NCBI GenBank assembly: GCA_029001845.1
Contig: JAREWP010000016.1
Location: forward strand, 1-39,708
Length of the DNA stretch: 39,708 nucleotides
Origin: Candidatus Magnetocorallium paracelense
GTDB lineage: Bacteria > Nitrospirota > Thermodesulfovibrionia > Thermodesulfovibrionales > Magnetobacteriaceae
Direction of reading: 5' to 3'
Made by a program: the position numbers and the translations under genes. The notes below the pieces were generated by a model. That model saw nothing but the letters and a program-made list of their open reading frames with translations, did no database searches and was not told the DNA's origin. Below, one piece after another: positions 6,464 to 38,455 of this stretch; position 1 is the first letter of the stretch, and every line of letters begins with the position of its first letter.

Positions 6464-6495
6464 ATAAAAAAAACCGTATCCCTAATGGAATACGG
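6464..6495 (-). terminator. Riboswitch expression-platform terminator
   Basis: On the minus strand CCGTATTCC pairs with GGGATACGG (nine pairs, one G-T) around an ATTA loop and runs straight into eight T residues. It lies between the TPP aptamer and thiS, so ligand-dependent transcription termination is the likely control mechanism. Confidence 0.92.
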
Positions 6496-6509
6496 CCTGC
6501 TTCTCTCCC

Positions 6510-6598
6510 TTTCCCTACGTCAGCATTAACCGTATCAGGTTCGAAGGGTCTCCTTAACAACAGGACTCTCAGGCTTCTCAGCCTCCCCCAGGGTAATT
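6510..6598 (-). ncRNA. TPP riboswitch aptamer (THI element)
   Basis: The minus strand shows the conserved thi-box features in order: GGGGGAGGCTGAGA at the 5' side, a variable hairpin, then ACCCTTCGAACCTGATA and CGGTTAATGCTGACGTAGGG. These are the pyrimidine-sensor and pyrophosphate-sensor helices of the thiamine pyrophosphate aptamer. It stands directly upstream of thiS with an intrinsic terminator after it, so high TPP should switch the operon off. Confidence 0.96.
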
Positions 6599-6603
6599 CT
6601 ATA

Positions 6604-20459: not shown

Positions 20460-20786
20460 GTCTTTAACGAAGGATTAACGAGAAACATCCCCGCCTTTTC
20501 CAGATTTTTCGATTCAATGGCCTATTCCCATGGAGAGATAACGAATTATTCCAACATCGCCCGTGACTGTGGAGTGGACGGGAAAACCGTAAAGGAGTAT
20601 TACCAAATACTTATTGACACCAATCTCGGAAGCATGGTGAAGCCCTTTAAAAAGAAGCAAACCACAGATGTATTGACAAAAGCGTCAAAGTTTTCTCTTT
20701 TTGATGTAGGAGTTGCAGGCTCTATAACAGAATTGTCTCTGTTCAGCACCAAAATGATGTCGGAACGATTGGAGGATGAAAATTGA
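20460..20786 (+). pseudogene. C-terminal remnant of an AAA_14/DUF4143-type ATPase
   Basis: From 20460 the frame reads VFNEGLTRNIPAFSRFFDS, then SNIARDCGVDGKTVKEYYQI and KFSLFDVGVAGSI, which is the winged-helix and DUF4143 part of the common P-loop ATPase family (AAA_14). The N-terminal P-loop half is missing, and the tail stops early at the TTGA shared with the ahbD start. An ATG at 20517 exists, but the homology extends upstream of it, so this is decay and not a complete small gene. Its tail supplies the ahbD ribosome site GGAGG. Confidence 0.8.
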
Positions 20787-21853
20787 TTAAAAAATTCGAA
20801 CCTAAATGGATAGCATGGGAGATTACAAGAAGGTGCAATCTTAATTGTGTGCATTGTCGCTCCTCATCGGAAATGGTAATAAAGGATCATCCTGATTTTG
20901 CCACGGAAGAGGGATACCGGATAATTGACGATATTGCGGGATATGCAAAACCTGTAATGGTGTTGTCAGGTGGAGAACCTCTGATGAGGCGCGATGTTTT
21001 CGATCTCGCTCGATACGGAACAGACAAGGGGCTGAGAATGTGTATCGCCACTAACGGCATGCTTGTAACAGAGGATATTTGTAAAAAAATGAACTCCGCT
21101 GAAATTAAAATGGTCTCTCTCAGTCTTGACGGTTCCACTGAGGAAGGACACGACGACTTCAGAAAACAGAAGGGCGCCTTCGCGGGAGTGATAAAGGCAG
21201 CCGAACTTTTCAATAAACATGGAATCAAGTTTCTGATAAATTCCTCTTTTACAAAGCGTAATCAGGATGAGATACCCAAGGTGTACGACCTTGCCAAAAG
21301 GCTCGGAGCTACGGCCTGGTATATGTTTATGATAGTACCTACCGGCAGAGGCGAAGATATAATGAACGAACTCATATCAAAAGAAGATTACGAAGAGTTG
21401 CTTCAATGGCATTACCGGATGGAAAAGGAAGAAAAAGATTTACTGGTTCGTCCTACCTGCGCACCTCACTATTACAGGATCGTACTTCAGAAGCAAAAGG
21501 AGGACGGTGAAAAATTCGAACGCAGAAGTCTGAAGTTTTCCACAGGAGGCTCTAAGGGCTGCATTGCCGGCCAGGTTATTTGTCTGATAGATGTGGATGA
21601 AAATGTTCTTCCATGCAGCTATTTTCCAAAATCCGCAGGAAACCTGAAAGAGATGTCTTTAAAAGAAATCTGGGAAAATTCCGATCTTTTCAGAGAAATG
21701 AGAGATTTTAAGGGCTATAAGGGCAGGTGTGGTTCCTGCGAATATCTCAATGTATGCGGCGGCTGCCGCGCCAGAGCATATGCCGTAAAGGGCGATTATC
21801 TTGAAGAAGAACCCTTTTGCGGATATATACCTTACAGAATCAGAAAAGCATAG
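20783..21853 (+). CDS. ahbD: AhbD-like heme b synthase (radical SAM/SPASM)
   Basis: This 356-residue radical SAM enzyme has the cluster motif Cys18-x3-Cys22-x2-Cys25 in [11 protein letters not shown], the SAM-binding GGEP, and a C-terminal SPASM-type region with [44 protein letters not shown] and a final Cys in EEPFCGY. The internal [13 protein letters not shown] and [10 protein letters not shown] blocks match AhbD, which converts Fe-coproporphyrin III to heme b by two propionate decarboxylations in the siroheme-dependent pathway. NirJ/AhbC relatives are the main alternative. The start is TTG, seven bases after GGAGG; the next in-frame ATG would cut off the cluster motif. The exporter gene follows after 20 bp. 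Other ahb genes are not in the window. Confidence 0.85.
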
Positions 21854-21873
21854 TCAGGGGGAAAAGGTCTTCA

Positions 21874-24312
21874 ATGAAAAGAGTGACAAAAAAAATTAAT
21901 CGTTTCTTTGAATCGCTGGGCGATTTTTTTTATGTACATAAATATGTATCCATAATAACGATGCTTTCCATTGCCTTTGCCCTGGGATTGCAACTGCCCG
22001 GCTTAAAAGTGGATACCACGATCGAGGGATTCTTGCGTGAAGACGATCCTGCGCTGATTAAATTTTATGAGTTCAGAAAACAGTTCGGCAGAGACGACGC
22101 TATTATCATAGCCCTTAATCCGCCCGATATATTCAGCCTGAATTTTCTAAATATACTAAAATCTCTCCATTATGAACTGGAAGACAATGTCCCCTATCTG
22201 AACGAGATTACCAGTATGATCAATGCCCGATTCACTATAGGGAGAGGCGATGAACTGATTGTAGAAGACCTTCTTGAGAAATGGCCTGAAGATGAGACTC
22301 AGTTAGAAATACTAAGAGAGAAAGTATTTGCCAATCCTCTTTACAAAAACACATTAATCTCAGAAGATGGGAAATTTACTACAATTACGATCAAAATAGA
22401 ATCGTTTATAAACGATGAAACAGACTCCGGTACATCCGAACTTCAGGATTTCAACGACGATTTATTTGAAGATGAGTTGTCGGAATATATCACCGATGCG
22501 GAAGAGACCACATCTCAAAGCGAAATAAACGATCAAAAAATCATTACCTCAATAAAAGAGATTATCTCCGATCACAGAGACCTCGATTTTCCTGTTTATC
22601 TATCGGGCTCGCCTGTGATAAACACAGAGCTGACGGAGGCCATGCAAAGGGATATGACTCTCTTTATGGGGCTGGCTATCTTGGTTATCTCCATTTTTCT
22701 TTATATCCTTTTCCAATCCTGGCATGGTGTGATGCTGCCTTTATTGGTTGTAATACTGACCCTGATTTCCACATTAGGCCTCATGGCCCTGTCAGGCACC
22801 GCCATTAAACTCCCCAGCCAGATCATGCCTTCTTTTCTGCTGGTCGTTTGTGTATGTGATTCCGTTCATATCCTGGCCATCTTTTACCGATCCGTCATGG
22901 AAGGTCGGGAAAAACAGAAGGCCCTTCGTGAGGCCCTCGGCCACTCCGGCACTGCCTTACTAATGACAACAGTAACGACATCGGGAGGCTTACTATCATT
23001 CGCCAATGCGGACATAGCGCCTGTGGCGGATATTGGAATATTCGGGCCTGTTGGCGTCTTACTGGCCTTTATATATACAATTGTCCTGCTGCCTCCTTTA
23101 CTTTCCATTATCCCGATGAAAAATTCGACACCCGGTGAAAAAGCGTATAATGATAAAAAGGGACCAGGGATAATCGACGGAATTTTGACCTGCTTCGGTA
23201 ATATGGCAGTTAACTATCCAAAAACTATAATAGGAGTAAGCCTGGGATTGCTTTGTATCGCCATTGCGAGTATCCCCGGTCTTACATTATCGCATCATCC
23301 TGTTTTATGGTTGCCTGAAAATGCTGAGGTAAGACGGGCTACGGAAATTGTGGATGAGAAACTCAAGGGTACTTCCACTTTGGAGGTGATACTCGATACC
23401 GGGGAAGAGAATGGATGGTATGATCCGGAGTTATTACAGGATCTGAATCGAATGAGCGCTTATGCAGAAAGTTACAGTGAGGGAAATGTCTTTGTCGGTC
23501 AGGCGATCTCGCTTGTCGATATGCTTAAGGAGATCAATCAGGCATTACACGAAAACAGAAGCGATTTTTATACAATACCTGAAGATCGTAATCTGATAGC
23601 CCAGGAGTTTCTTCTCTTTGAAAACAGCGGTTCCGACGATTTGGAAGATCTCGTTGACAGTCAATTCAGCAAATCCAGATTTTCCCTGAAATTGCCGACG
23701 ATCGATGCCGTGGAGTATACGGGCTTTACAAATATTTTTGAAAAGAGACTGATAAATGAATTAAATGGTACTGTCGAGATAACGATTACCGGGATTGTAG
23801 CTCTTTTGCTCAGAACTATCCATGCAATGATGATAAGTATGATAAAGAGTTATACAACGGCATTAATCGTTATTTCCATACTTATGATCATCTTACTGGG
23901 AAGGCTTGGAATCGGCCTTTTGAGTATGATTCCCAATCTTTTTCCGATTATTCTCATCCTGGGAATCATGGAGTGGTTTCATATCTCTTTAGACGCCTTT
24001 ACATTGCTTATCGGAAGTATCGCCATAGGATTGGTAGTAGATGATACGATACACTTTTTCAACAACTTTCAGTTTTTTTATGACAGAGAGGGCGATGTGC
24101 GTAAAGCCGTGGTTTTGACCTTACAGAGTACGGGCAGGGCGGTACTGTTTACGAGTCTTGTCCTTTCGTCGGGTTTTTTTATTTATATGTTCGCGTCCCT
24201 GGGAAATCTTTTTTATTTCGGGCTGCTCACGGGCATTACTATATTATTGGCTCTTTGCGCAGATCTTATTCTTGCACCTGCATTGATGGTTTTATATTTA
24301 GAAAAGAGGTAA
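21874..24312 (+). CDS. RND-superfamily (MMPL/COG1033) exporter
   Basis: The 812-residue protein is an RND-type transporter of the COG1033/MMPL kind. It has two tandem halves, each a leading membrane segment, a large periplasmic loop (about residues 50-255 and 470-640) and a block of five to six membrane segments. Half one shows LQLPGLKVDTTIEGFLREDD after TM1, and half two has the TM4 motif IGLVVDDTIHFF with paired Asp residues for proton relay. The start is the ATG at 21874 behind a GGGGGAAAAGG purine stretch, 20 bp after ahbD. Substrate unknown; lipids, hydrophobic compounds or heme-related molecules are possible from family and context. Confidence 0.9.
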   Translation: MKRVTKKINRFFESLGDFFYVHKYVSIITMLSIAFALGLQLPGLKVDTTIEGFLREDDPALIKFYEFRKQFGRDDAIIIALNPPDIFSLNFLNILKSLHYELEDNVPYLNEITSMINARFTIGRGDELIVEDLLEKWPEDETQLEILREKVFANPLYKNTLISEDGKFTTITIKIESFINDETDSGTSELQDFNDDLFEDELSEYITDAEETTSQSEINDQKIITSIKEIISDHRDLDFPVYLSGSPVINTELTEAMQRDMTLFMGLAILVISIFLYILFQSWHGVMLPLLVVILTLISTLGLMALSGTAIKLPSQIMPSFLLVVCVCDSVHILAIFYRSVMEGREKQKALREALGHSGTALLMTTVTTSGGLLSFANADIAPVADIGIFGPVGVLLAFIYTIVLLPPLLSIIPMKNSTPGEKAYNDKKGPGIIDGILTCFGNMAVNYPKTIIGVSLGLLCIAIASIPGLTLSHHPVLWLPENAEVRRATEIVDEKLKGTSTLEVILDTGEENGWYDPELLQDLNRMSAYAESYSEGNVFVGQAISLVDMLKEINQALHENRSDFYTIPEDRNLIAQEFLLFENSGSDDLEDLVDSQFSKSRFSLKLPTIDAVEYTGFTNIFEKRLINELNGTVEITITGIVALLLRTIHAMMISMIKSYTTALIVISILMIILLGRLGIGLLSMIPNLFPIILILGIMEWFHISLDAFTLLIGSIAIGLVVDDTIHFFNNFQFFYDREGDVRKAVVLTLQSTGRAVLFTSLVLSSGFFIYMFASLGNLFYFGLLTGITILLALCADLILAPALMVLYLEKR

Positions 24313-24334
24313 TAGAGGTTATTGAGTATAAAAA

Positions 24335-24468
24335 CAATGTCATTAACATAAGGAGCAAAGCACCTTCCGCCTTCAGCGGCTAAACTCGAAGGCTCCGCTT
24401 CGCTGCGCCTTCTCAGACATGACCCGCTTCCGTCGGAAGGTGCTTCACCCCTTATGTTAATGGTATTG
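24335..24468 (+). mobile_element. 134-bp MITE with 10-bp target duplication
   Basis: Imperfect ~35-bp inverted ends begin CAATGTCATTAACATAAGG and end with the inverse of CAATACCATTAACATAAGG; both continue into GAAGCACCTTCCG-like sequence. AGTATAAAAA flanks it exactly (24325-24334, 24469-24478). It is about 93% identical by eye to the inverted element at 29638-29771. No coding capacity. It lies 22 bp after the exporter stop and may also end that transcript. Ten-base duplications fit IS4-type transposases, an inference. Confidence 0.92.
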
Positions 24469-24671
24469 AGTATAAAAATATAATTCACACAAAGACTCAT
24501 TGACTTTTGCTTCCCTATCTGTTATCCTTTTACAATTATTTCTATTTAGAATTCTTGACTCAGAACACAGAAAAAAGAGTATTCAAATGCAATTCGGAGG
24601 AACCTTTCCCTCTCCCCAGGCGGGCATAAGCGCTCAAATAAGAGAGAAAATATCGAAAAAGGAGAAAAAGC
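24469..24671 (+). other. Leader of the GGDEF-like gene
   Basis: AT-rich spacer between the MITE and the GGDEF-like gene. A possible 66-codon frame from 24500 begins with TTG, has no ribosome site and overlaps the next gene, so I do not count it. Confidence 0.4.
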
Positions 24672-28009: not shown

Positions 28010-28130
28010 AGTCTGAAATCTCTCCCTCGTTCTTATTTTGTAAAATAAGAGCAAGAATACCATAATATATGGACTATATTCAAAAAAACAGATGTCCTGA
28101 ATTGATGTTAAGCGCGATATTGAAGAGGTT
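28010..28130 (-). other. Upstream region of the patatin gene
   Basis: Contains the ribosome site for the patatin gene and AT-rich sequence that probably holds its promoter; no gene or distinct motif is seen before the multi-hairpin repeat starts at 28131. Confidence 0.4.
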
Positions 28131-28290
28131 TTATCCCGAAAATAACCGGCATCGTGCCGGAAGGAGCAGTGATGTCCTGCCAAAACAAGCTGAAACTCGC
28201 AGACTCAAACACCACCTTGTTTTGGCAGGACATCACTGCTCCTTCTTAACCATTTTCATGCTTTGTGGTGGCCCGGAGGGCCATGGACGT
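28131..28290 (+). repeat. Multi-hairpin dispersed repeat, copy 2
   Basis: A 160-bp copy of 14493-14651. Hairpins: CCGGCA-TCG-TGCCGG at the 5' side; a perfect long fold-back with GAAGGAGCAGTGATGTCC opposite GGACATCACTGCTCCTTC; GGCCC-GGA-GGGCC; and GGAC-GTTT-GTCC just after. Compared with copy 1, pairs change together (T/A to G/C at 28164/28241; A/T to G/C and T/A to C/G in the small hairpin). Confidence 0.9.
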
Positions 28291-28392: not shown

Positions 28393-28407
28393 AATATGAG
28401 CAATATT

Positions 28408-28434
28408 TGCACACTGAGATATAGGGTGTGTGCA
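28408..28434 (+). promoter_or_regulatory. Inverted repeat, possible activator site
   Basis: TGCACAC and GTGTGCA face each other across 13 bases. It is about 110 bp before the putative -24/-12 promoter, the usual distance for an enhancer-binding protein site. Activator unknown. Confidence 0.4.
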
Positions 28435-28517
28435 GAAGTATCTCACTATTACAAATATCTGCGCCATGTCGGGTGAGTGTAAACCATTATTTTCAACTAT
28501 CTGCCTCTGAGAATAAC

Positions 28518-28534
28518 CTGGCATAGTATTTGAT
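28518..28534 (+). promoter_or_regulatory. Possible sigma54 (-24/-12) promoter
   Basis: CTGGCATAGTATTTGAT fits the YTGGCA-N6-TTGCW consensus with exact spacing and one core change (C to A after TTG). It ends 48 bp before the ATG of the first small Gly/Ser-rich gene. Confidence 0.5.
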
Positions 28535-28582
28535 AGATAAATATCCGGTTACACAAAAAAATTTAAAGGAGGAGACAAGGTT

Positions 28583-28834
28583 ATGGCAGATCAGGATTTC
28601 TTAAACATGTCAAAAAGCGGCGGCGATTCTTCCATAGGAGAAGCATCGACATCATCAGCAGCCTCAGGCGGATATGCCTCAGGTGAAGGAGAGGCAAGTG
28701 TCGTTAATGCTGATCCTTATGGAACGGGATTGGCCTGCGCAAGCGCCGGCGCCATAGGTCAGAACGCTATCGGTTCTACAGGCGGCGGAGTAACGGATAA
28801 CACGGCGATTGACACAATCAACATTTCTTCATAA
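28583..28834 (+). CDS. Small Gly/Ser/Ala-rich protein, paralogue 1 (83 aa)
   Basis: A strong AAAGGAGGAG site precedes the ATG. The product starts MADQDFLNMSKSGGDSSIG, has a low-complexity Gly/Ser/Ala middle (about residues 20-55), and ends with GQNAIGS, GGGVTDNTAIDTINISS. It is acidic, lacks a signal peptide and membrane segment, and has one cysteine (GLACAS). The first ~20 and last ~27 residues are nearly the same as in the next gene, so the pair arose by duplication while the middle diverged. I do not recognise the family. Possibilities are a structural or surface-assembling peptide, or a substrate of an export or modification system; none is demonstrated. Confidence 0.85.
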   Translation: MADQDFLNMSKSGGDSSIGEASTSSAASGGYASGEGEASVVNADPYGTGLACASAGAIGQNAIGSTGGGVTDNTAIDTINISS

Positions 28835-28867
28835 AAAATTAAACAAATAAATAAGGAGGAAACAATC

Positions 28868-29131
28868 ATGTCTAATGAATTTGCAAATATGAGTAAATCA
28901 GGCGGTGACTCAAGCATAGGGGCAGCTGATATTTCTACAGGAGCAGAAGGCGGCAGCGCTTCCGGTTCGGGCGAAGGCGACGTAAGCAGCGGCTGGTGGG
29001 GCGGCGGATACGCCGAAGGAACAGGAGCAGGTTATGCAGGCGCAGGCGCCGTAGGTCAGAATGCAGTCGGTTCCGCAGCAGGCGGAGTGACGGATAATAC
29101 GGCTATTGATTCTATTAATATTTCTTCTTAA
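28868..29131 (+). CDS. Small Gly/Ser/Ala-rich protein, paralogue 2 (87 aa)
   Basis: It lies 33 bp after paralogue 1 with its own AAGGAGGAAA ribosome site, so the two are probably one transcript. Shared blocks are NMSKSGGDSSIG at residues ~7-18 and GAVGQNAVGS plus GGVTDNTAIDSINISS at the end. The middle differs: it is richer in glycine and has aromatic residues (SSGWWGGGYAEG, AGYAGAG). No cysteine, signal peptide or membrane segment. Two strong ribosome sites on very short genes suggest high protein output. Function unknown. Confidence 0.85.
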   Translation: MSNEFANMSKSGGDSSIGAADISTGAEGGSASGSGEGDVSSGWWGGGYAEGTGAGYAGAGAVGQNAVGSAAGGVTDNTAIDSINISS

Positions 29132-29157: not shown

Positions 29158-29222
29158 TTCTACTTTGTTACATTAAAATTAAAGTTTTCTTACAGCTCTT
29201 TTTGGAATGTAACAAAGTAGAA
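29158..29222. repeat. Perfect fold-back with TTCTACTTTGTTACATT ends
   Basis: TTCTACTTTGTTACATT (29158-29174) and its exact inverse (29206-29222) flank 31 bases. The same end sequence occurs at 6683. It lies 27 bp after the second Gly/Ser-rich gene. There is no T-run on the plus strand, so it is not a typical intrinsic terminator, although it would stabilise the mRNA 3' end. Confidence 0.75.
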
Positions 29223-29637: not shown

Positions 29638-29771
29638 CAATACTATTAACTTAAGGGGCAAAGTGCCTTCCGACAGAAGCGGGTCATGTCTGAGAAGGCG
29701 GAGAGAAGCGGAGCCTTCGAGTTTAGCCGCTGAAGGCGGAAGGTGCTTTGCTCCTTAAGTTAATGACATTG
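29638..29771 (-). mobile_element. 134-bp MITE, inverted copy, with 10-bp target duplication
   Basis: Reverse-complement copy of 24335-24468, equal in length and differing at about ten positions. Ends are CAATACTATTAACTTAAGG and CCTTAAGTTAATGACATTG. ATACTATAAC flanks it exactly (29628-29637 and 29772-29781). Confidence 0.92.
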
Positions 29772-36295: not shown

Positions 36296-38455
36296 TTACT
36301 CCAAGGTGATATCGTTTTTTATGCGCCTGTTTACTTCCTTTTCCAGTTTTTCCAATAATTCACCGGAATCTTTTAACAGGGTGTCAAATGACTCCTTAAC
36401 AAGAGATAAGACCATACAATCGCTGACAGCCTGAACGGTTGCTGTATGGGGAATTGTTTTAACAAGTGCAATTTCTCCAAAAAAGTCGCCATCCACCATT
36501 TTACGAACCATTTTTTGATTTCCCTTTCCATCACTGACCAAAACCTTTACAATGCCTCTGCCGATTATATAGAATCTCGTACCCCTGTCTCCCTGCTTGA
36601 TTATTTGTTGGCCCTTTTCATATTTTTCCAAGACAAAGTTCCGAGACAAAATATTCAGTTTTGATTCATCCAGATTTTTAAACAGTGGTATTGTTTGGAG
36701 ATAAAAAGTTGCAATATCGTAACTTCTGGCGGGTTTATTGATAGAAATACCTCTTTGCTTTTGAACAAGTTGCCAATACAAACCTTTTTGCGCCATCAGG
36801 GTAGAGTGATTCCCCTGCTCTGATAATCTTCCTTCGTTTAAAACAAATATTTTGTCAAAAAATTCAACAAAAGACAACCTGTGTGTTACATATAAGAGGG
36901 TTCTCTCTTTTTTCAGCTTATTAATCGTTTCATGAATCGCCGCCTCTGTTTCCGCATCCAGTGCAGAGGTAACTTCGTCAAGTAAAAGAATATCGGGATT
37001 TCTGTAAAGAGCACGGGCAATAGCAATACGTTGCCTCTGCCCGCCGGAGAGGTCTCTGTTGCAGATGACGGCTTTGTAACCCTCGGGCAGGTTTATAATA
37101 AAATCGTGTATTCTCGCCATCTTGGCTGCTGCTATGACTTCCTCTTGAGAAGTGTCTGTTTTACCGAGGCAAATATTGTTTTCAACTGTAGTATTAAAAA
37201 GGTAAGTATCCTGGGATACCACTCCGATGTGAGAACGAAGAGAACTGTGAGATACTGAGGCGATATTTATTCCGTCCCAGGTGATCGATCCTGATTGCAG
37301 TTCATAAAGGAGTTGCAGAACTTTCAGAATCGTACTCTTTCCAGAACCGCTGGGCCCCACAAAGGCGATTGTTTCTCCCTTTGATATTTGCAAACTTAAA
37401 TTATTAATAACATATTGATCCGGGGAGTATCCAAAGGTAATATTGTTAATACAAATCTGTGAAGAGAGTGGGGCTAAACTGTTTGTACCTTGTTGCACAG
37501 TGGATTTCTCATAAAGAAGTTCATCTACGCGTCTTATCGCTCCAATGGATTTTAGAATATGGGGAATGGCGAAACTGCACAGAGCCACACCACCGGCGAT
37601 ATTCAAAACGATTGCAAAAAAACTGATAAGAGAGCCCACTGTTATAATCTCTTTGACAGCCAAAATGGCTCCTCCTCCAATCACAAATAATACAACCAGA
37701 TCAATTCCTCTACCGGTAATCTGCTCGATAAGGAAAGTTACAAACCCCAGCTTTGTACTGGAATGCTGTAATTTATTTACAGGAATTAAAAACTTATCGC
37801 GCCAAAATCTTTCTGCTCCAAAAGCACGGATAGTCATTTGCGCAGTTATCGTCTCCTCTAAAATCGATGAAACGGAAGCTTCATCTTCTCTGCGTTGATA
37901 ACCGATCTTATTCGCTTTTTTTCCCAACAGATGATTCCCCGCGGCTAAAAGAGGTAAAACAACGATTGCTACGACTGTAAGACGCCATTCCAATACAAAT
38001 AAAATGATCACACTAAACAGAGAGAGGAAAATTCCGTTAAAACTAACAGGCAGCCCGACTATGAGTGCATTTTCTATTGCACTAATGTCATTTGAGAAAC
38101 GGGACATCGTATTGCCGACAGGTACTTTTGAAAAATAATCGGGATTCACTTCCTGCAACTTGTCAAGCATTTTCAGACGTAAATCTTTAATGATCAAAGA
38201 GCTTGTTTTTGGCATGAAATAACCGGAGAGTATATATGAGCCTATCATTATAATAAACAGCAATCCGGCCCACAATAAAAGTGTAGTCAAATAATCGACA
38301 TCTTTATGGACAATCGCAACATTGAATATTTCACGGTAAAACAGAGGAAAACAGATTTGTACCATAGTTGTTACGGATAATCCTATGGCAATTAATAAAG
38401 CGTACAGCTTATAGGGACTTATAAGTTCAAAAATCCTGCGTATAAAGTAAAACAT
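36296..38455 (-). CDS. ABC exporter with C-terminal cyclic-nucleotide-binding domain
   Basis: The 719-residue protein joins a six-helix type I exporter domain (~1-310), a nucleotide-binding domain and a CNB domain (~590-719). The NBD has Walker A GPSGSGKST, Q-loop SQDTYLF, signature LSGGQRQRIAIARAL, Walker B ILLLDEVTSALD and H-loop VTHRL, all intact. The CNB part reads KGQQIIKQGDRGTRFYIIGR and GDFFGEIALVKTIPHTATV; the arginine that normally binds the phosphate is replaced (PHTATV instead of PR-x-A), so cNMP binding may be lost. It probably works as a homodimer. The TPR and GspE-N-like genes lie upstream on the same strand. Confidence 0.9.
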   Translation of the reverse strand: MFYFIRRIFELISPYKLYALLIAIGLSVTTMVQICFPLFYREIFNVAIVHKDVDYLTTLLLWAGLLFIIMIGSYILSGYFMPKTSSLIIKDLRLKMLDKLQEVNPDYFSKVPVGNTMSRFSNDISAIENALIVGLPVSFNGIFLSLFSVIILFVLEWRLTVVAIVVLPLLAAGNHLLGKKANKIGYQRREDEASVSSILEETITAQMTIRAFGAERFWRDKFLIPVNKLQHSSTKLGFVTFLIEQITGRGIDLVVLFVIGGGAILAVKEIITVGSLISFFAIVLNIAGGVALCSFAIPHILKSIGAIRRVDELLYEKSTVQQGTNSLAPLSSQICINNITFGYSPDQYVINNLSLQISKGETIAFVGPSGSGKSTILKVLQLLYELQSGSITWDGINIASVSHSSLRSHIGVVSQDTYLFNTTVENNICLGKTDTSQEEVIAAAKMARIHDFIINLPEGYKAVICNRDLSGGQRQRIAIARALYRNPDILLLDEVTSALDAETEAAIHETINKLKKERTLLYVTHRLSFVEFFDKIFVLNEGRLSEQGNHSTLMAQKGLYWQLVQKQRGISINKPARSYDIATFYLQTIPLFKNLDESKLNILSRNFVLEKYEKGQQIIKQGDRGTRFYIIGRGIVKVLVSDGKGNQKMVRKMVDGDFFGEIALVKTIPHTATVQAVSDCMVLSLVKESFDTLLKDSGELLEKLEKEVNRRIKNDITLE

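Follow-up and report, generated by a model that had tools for sequence, protein, structure and literature searches.

The gene pair and its 16-copy family

The window, by which we mean the whole stretch of 39,708 nucleotides analysed here, carries two adjacent short genes at 28583 to 29131. These genes and the features that surround them are given below in their order along the forward strand (+).

28397..28413 (+): upstream palindrome 1, TGAGCA-ATATT-TGCACA, with 0 mismatches to TGwGCA-N5-TGCwCA; predicted enhancer-binding-protein site
28429..28445 (+): upstream palindrome 2, TGTGCA-GAAGT-ATCTCA, with 2 mismatches; predicted second enhancer-binding-protein site
28519..28535 (+): predicted sigma-54 -24/-12 element, TGGCATAGTATTTGATA, with the exact pattern YGGCAYRDTHYTTGATA
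28567..28576 (+): Shine-Dalgarno sequence of gene 1, AAAGGAGGAG
28583..28834 (+): gene 1, 83 aa, subtype A (MADQDFLNMSKSGGDSSIG...VTDNTAIDTINISS), ATG start, under purifying selection
28853..28860 (+): Shine-Dalgarno sequence of gene 2, AAGGAGGA (AAGGAGG site)
28868..29131 (+): gene 2, 87 aa, subtype B (MSNEFANMSKSGGDSSIGAAD...VTDNTAIDSINISS), ATG start
29158..29222 (+): 17-bp hairpin 3' of gene 2 (TTCTACTTTGTTACATT ... AATGTAACAAAGTAGAA), fold z-score -4.6

Both open reading frames start with ATG and possess ideal Shine-Dalgarno sites (AAAGGAGGAG and AAGGAGG, respectively), where an earlier note on this DNA had described near-ideal ribosome sites. The hairpin downstream of gene 2, for which none of 200 shuffles folded equally stably, is a probable transcript end. 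The note took the genes for a tandem pair; they are indeed real and adjacent, but they belong to a much larger set. A search of the genome (6.0 Mb in 103 contigs) with protein 1 located 16 copies, and a profile built on all 16 returned, at E up to 10, the same copies and none extra. The family consists of exactly 16 intact paralogues in eight operons, which contain two genes (C80, the operon of the window, C96, C66 and C102), three genes (C90 and C38 at ~76 kb) or a single gene (C38 at ~166 kb and C77). Every copy has its own Shine-Dalgarno site, none of the 16 is interrupted by a stop or a frameshift, and the encoded proteins are 83-90 aa long. Subtype A, which carries DPYGTG in its middle, forms a separate clade (bootstrap 100%) and, where present, is always the first gene of its operon. 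By motif, the non-A members mostly adopt SEIGSAS and SSIGAAD forms, in that order in most operons, a grouping and order that represent our own reading of the sequences. This layout suggests an ancestral A-B-B operon, followed by duplication and loss of members.

Alignment of the 16 paralogues revealed invariant residues at the N-terminus (F6, N8, M9, K11-S12-G13-G14-D15, I18 and G19) and at the C-terminus (V70-T71-D72-N73-T74, I76 and I79-N80-I81-S82-S83), which extends to the whole family the shared end blocks first seen in the pair. The end consensus reads F-x-N-M-x-K-S-G-G-D-x-x-I-G and V-T-D-N-T-x-I-x-x-I-N-I-S-S, respectively. The middle also has invariant positions (A27, G29, G30, A32, G34, G36 and G47-T48-G49), with a mean conservation of 0.73 compared to 0.86 and 0.85 for the two ends. 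Pooled pN/pS is 0.29 overall; by region, it is lowest at the C-terminus (0.16), intermediate at the N-terminus (0.27) and highest in the middle (0.43). The low-complexity middle is less conserved, as had been noted, but its divergence was overstated. The proposed design of a recognition tag and a payload is at best partly supported, because the middle is likewise under purifying selection, contains invariant columns and is near-identical within the first-gene subtype. In close paralogue pairs, the substitutions at codon positions 1/2/3 number 6/1/37, 7/2/33 and 2/0/31, the last between gene 2 and its C90 copy. With third positions dominating in this way, the genes are truly protein-coding and under purifying selection; the note's second refuting condition, substitution ratios that show no coding selection, does not hold.

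No homologue was found at E <= 1e-3 in 59 relatives, 18 of them from the same taxonomic family, nor did the remaining members of a phylum sample of 396 genomes yield one. Scanning 84,980 species by sequence pattern also gave none, by a method that detects close relatives only and may omit records of the window's own genome. Two scans of IMG/VR and searches of PDB sequences and PHROGs returned no family match; no Pfam or NCBIfam model matches the protein of gene 1 or gene 2, and none of the 16 members has a Pfam match above cut-off, in keeping with the earlier label of an unknown family. A phage or plasmid origin was rejected, as tblastn gave no match to phage or plasmid sequences up to E 10 and the IMG/VR scans were empty. 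The homologues with conserved ends that the note would have sought in related genomes are missing there, and 14 further paralogues occur within the genome itself; these paralogues and the codon-level selection argue that the genes are real despite the relatives without homologues. On these searches, the family appears to be specific to one lineage.

Two dispersed repeats also occur around the gene pair. The first, a palindromic repeat with GCAGGACATCACTGCTCC arms, lies at 28120-28250 of the window, with pairs often ~62 bp apart; when up to 3 mismatches are allowed, it matches 131 genomic sites compared to 1 for a reversed control, and copies are located upstream of the C80, C90 and C102 operons. 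The second, at 24213-24500 and ~29640-29765 of the window, reads SDGSGSCLRR.SEAEPSSLAAEGGRC in a spurious frame, is found close to six of the family's eight operons and is probably a MITE- or REP-like element. Elsewhere in the window, a TPP riboswitch (6494-6599, minus strand) precedes genes of the thiS-thiG-thiE-thiC type (names by eye), and at 20517-24312 a DUF4143-like fragment is followed by a radical SAM protein (AhbD/TIGR04053-like, below its cut-off) and then by an MMPL/RND transporter.

Paired palindromes and a predicted sigma-54 promoter

Aligning the upstream regions of the operons brought out the palindromes and the sigma-54 element. Six of the eight operons possess two 17-bp palindromes of the form TGwGCA-N5-TGCwCA, with 0-2 mismatches in total, followed by the sigma-54 element; for each of the six, none of 1000 shuffles gave as good a combination. 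The C102 and C77 operons have no paired palindromes and no such switch upstream. The palindrome centres are 31 or 32 bp apart (32 bp in the window, 42 bp in one operon), and a further 82-84, 94 or 113 bp separate the second palindrome from the GG of the sigma-54 element, spacings that fit about whole helical turns.

The exact pattern YGGCAYRDTHYTTGATA has nine matches in the genome, six of which belong to the family; at 1 mismatch, there are 31 matches genome-wide against 2 for the reversed control. Others of this kind precede flagellin, DnaK-like, MFS and Spy-like genes (names by eye), and we therefore regard it as a general sigma-54 element of this genome, which encodes rpoN (PF04552, E 1.6e-59). 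The family thus combines the hallmarks of a sigma-54 regulon: a -24/-12 element, rpoN and phased predicted enhancer sites upstream. The architecture resembles the sigma-54 regulome of Desulfovibrio vulgaris (PMC4641369) in its -24/-12 element and in its sites ~100 bp upstream at a spacing compatible with looping. Compared to known sigma-54 promoters, the -12 part reads TTGAT instead of TTGC (A for C), and the paired TGwGCA-N5-TGCwCA serves no other genes in the genome.

A model of the paired palindromes retrieved the six family places as full two-site matches (E 5.6e-11 to 5.2e-7), all on the family strand, whereas the next independent match is of half length (E 0.16). This paired site, found in the genome only before the family, therefore implies a dedicated enhancer-binding protein, which apparently has this family as its only target. 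Single palindromes without mismatch lie elsewhere at just two positions, C74:82616 and C1:3401, the latter in front of what by eye is an IS66-like fragment; a wider regulon through these two was rejected, as neither has a partner site or a recognisable sigma-54 element. Separately, a 49-aa basic ORF (G000:C40:51827, L047), possibly a further regulon member, is preceded by a sigma-54-like element plus an incomplete TGTGCA-N5-TGCA site.

Protein properties and candidate export route

Glycine, serine and alanine make up 54% of the residues of the family, with 18-26% glycine, and cysteine accounts for 0.3%. The proteins have a pI of ~4, with 8-10 acidic and 1-2 basic residues, a net charge of ~-8 and a GRAVY of -0.07 to -0.32. 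They are unusually cheap to synthesise: on the Akashi-Gojobori scale, their residues cost 17.7 on average, compared to 24.1 (sd 1.3) for 105 large ORFs from this genome (z -5). Extracellular proteins are on average built from cheaper residues (PMC7005277); low cost and disorder would suit an abundant cytoplasmic protein as well. AlphaFold2, run with the 16-row alignment, gave no fold for the two window proteins (pLDDT 52 and 48), which agrees with disorder as well as with a fold dependent on assembly; the family proteins are probably disordered. The segment of highest beta-propensity, IDTINI or IDSINI, sits at the invariant C-terminus.

No signal peptide or hydrophobic N-terminal stretch was found. 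Like the curlins CsgA and CsgB, the family proteins are small, contain Gly/Ser/Asn and are putatively self-assembling, but they lack the signal peptide and the curlin repeat. None of the 16 members matches a curlin or any other Pfam model, and neither a Sec signal peptide nor linked csg genes or other common neighbours accompany them, so that the curlin likeness, itself offered as speculation, is not borne out.

All 16 members carry KSGG at about residues 10-14, which places a Gly-Gly within the first 12-30 residues, as in double-glycine substrates. LahT150 binds hydrophobic residues at -4, -7 and -12 (PMC6363468). In the family, every one of the 16 members has Lys at -4 and Asn at -7, and -12 is Ser, Asp, Asn, Thr or Ala and never Leu; we therefore do not file these proteins as canonical PCAT substrates.

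The genome encodes a single C39 (PF03412) protein of 1060 aa (C77:1701-4883), which consists of two cNMP domains, a C39 domain and an ABC exporter, with Gln/Cys/His/Asp in place by eye. It is the first gene of an operon (L089:1701-8128) that continues with an FHA/membrane protein and a TolC-like protein; the best NCBIfam model is HlyB-type, below cut-off. This protein is a candidate exporter of the family. The operon lies ~26 kb from the nearest family copy, to which it is unlinked, and has no copy of the paired palindrome site. No full-length counterpart was found in 39 relatives, though ABC exporters are present there, and the same 39 also lack the family; this co-restriction carries little weight because the genome is nearly twice the size of those of the relatives. 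The HetC-type cNMP-C39-ABC exporter of Nostoc (PMC10986499) similarly joins a cyclic-nucleotide-binding N-terminus, C39 catalytic residues and ABC in one chain, with its substrate not encoded adjacent; the C77 transporter differs in its two cNMP matches and in the FHA/membrane and TolC-like genes that follow. Another cyclic-nucleotide-coupled exporter, an ABC protein with a C-terminal cNMP domain, is encoded at 36296-38455 of the window.

A linked operon partner was sought by comparing the ORFs within ~10 kb of the eight operons all-against-all, and no shared partner emerged. The comparison returned nothing beyond generic domains (radical SAM, GGDEF, cNMP and HDOD), frames antisense to the family genes and a DNA repeat of the dispersed kind. 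Maturation by the radical SAM protein of the window was also rejected, as this protein is AhbD-like and unlinked to the other copies.

Possible function and related systems

Most copies stand under the same switch, and the cell therefore seems to mass-produce these proteins together. We tentatively favour, as a serious possibility short of a probable one, that they are co-induced, mass-produced and exported proteins that self-assemble into a matrix, fibre or gel and work like EbfG1-4, with no homology claimed. One dedicated sigma-54 enhancer-binding protein would turn on the whole family as a unit, its proteins would be made in bulk as structural material, and these would then be exported and assembled outside the cell into such a material. 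Contacts for export or assembly would come from the conserved ends, the beta-prone ...IDxINISS end might serve as the assembly segment, the Gly/Ser/Ala middle may act as flexible filler, and the C77 C39 peptidase ABC transporter could be the exporter. Of these steps, coordinated induction by one activator can be inferred with good confidence and bulk synthesis of structural material with moderate confidence; for export and extracellular assembly, via the C77 transporter or another route, confidence is low. The earlier idea of self-assembling proteins or export substrates is compatible with the composition and stays the best guess of function.

The nearest functional analogue would be EbfG1-4 of Synechococcus elongatus, a set that biofilm formation requires and that is secreted by PteB (PMC4997328, PMC9981879); for EbfG1-3, amyloid formation was shown, with a hotspot of A-Phi-N-I-small (PMC9981879). 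Both sets comprise tandem small paralogues (~9-10 kDa precursors) with a Gly-Gly near the N-terminus and a C39 transporter in the genome, and EbfG1-4 have no homologues reported from other cyanobacteria, just as none was found elsewhere for the present family. All 16 members end in I-N-I-S-S, a likeness to the hotspot that spans four residues and is suggestive only. The resemblance concerns the kind of protein and implies no homology; EbfG1-4 are encoded by one four-gene operon beside pteB, whereas the family has 16 copies in eight unlinked operons and lacks the canonical hydrophobic leader positions.

The chief alternative is a disordered protein that is abundant inside the cell. In such a case, hydrophilin-like or granule- or condensate-forming proteins of the same sigma-54 regulon would be made in bulk under a specific stress or nutrient state and never exported, which is possible if on the unlikely side. 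Neither a signal peptide nor a canonical leader nor a linked transporter is present, and the predicted disorder, acidity, glycine content of 18-26% and cheap residues all fit. By contrast, both ends are fixed to single residues, beyond the needs of generic disorder, and a GRAVY of -0.07 to -0.32 is less hydrophilic than that of typical hydrophilins.

Bacteriocins or signalling peptides, trimmed after KSGG by the C39 transporter and with subtypes A and B as a two-peptide unit, are improbable. The small genes in tandem, the Gly-Gly at residues 12-14 invariant in 16 of 16 and the single C39-ABC protein with Gln/Cys/His/Asp and a TolC-like partner agree with this reading, but the hydrophobic residues at -4/-7/-12 are absent, the net charge is ~-8, no common immunity-like gene stands beside the operons, and the diversification typical of bacteriocins does not match 16 near-redundant copies whose "mature" parts are conserved. 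Still less probable are precursors of a ribosomally made, enzyme-modified product with a maturase elsewhere in the genome, comparable to the prochlorosins. The many dispersed precursors, the conserved N-terminal block, the Ser/Thr-rich interior and a radical SAM/SPASM gene in the window (20783-21853) are set against a C-terminus that is the most conserved part, opposite to a leader with a hypervariable core; cysteine is at 0.3%, no common enzyme lies beside the operons, and the radical SAM protein scores best against the heme-b synthase AhbD, below cut-off. The combination of conserved leader, variable core and linked maturase that defines RiPP precursors is not found here. That the frames are no protein genes and belong to a dispersed GC-rich repeat staying open by chance, as the multiple copies and the dispersed non-coding palindromic repeats nearby might suggest, is refuted by the third-position substitutions (2/0/31), the 16 copies without frameshift or stop and their individual Shine-Dalgarno sites, and its probability is practically nil.

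Returning to the exported, self-assembling proteins, it is conceivable, though unlikely, that they constitute an undescribed system, restricted to one lineage, with many unlinked operons of one to three genes, one dedicated sigma-54 activator that fires them together and a non-canonical export signal (F-x-N-M-x-K-S-G-G-D or VTDNTxIxxINISS). A real, unusual orphan family, by its looks strongly expressed, and its regulatory account are well supported: 16 copies in one species, none found elsewhere, whose coding nature and selection are clear. Since the switch appears to be private, the role of the family can be tested directly through the activator, its signal and what the cell builds. If extracellular assembly is true, the family would represent a new route to a functional protein matrix that relies on neither a signal peptide nor the curli or Fap machinery; it would also be a source of self-assembling sequences that are very small and cheap.
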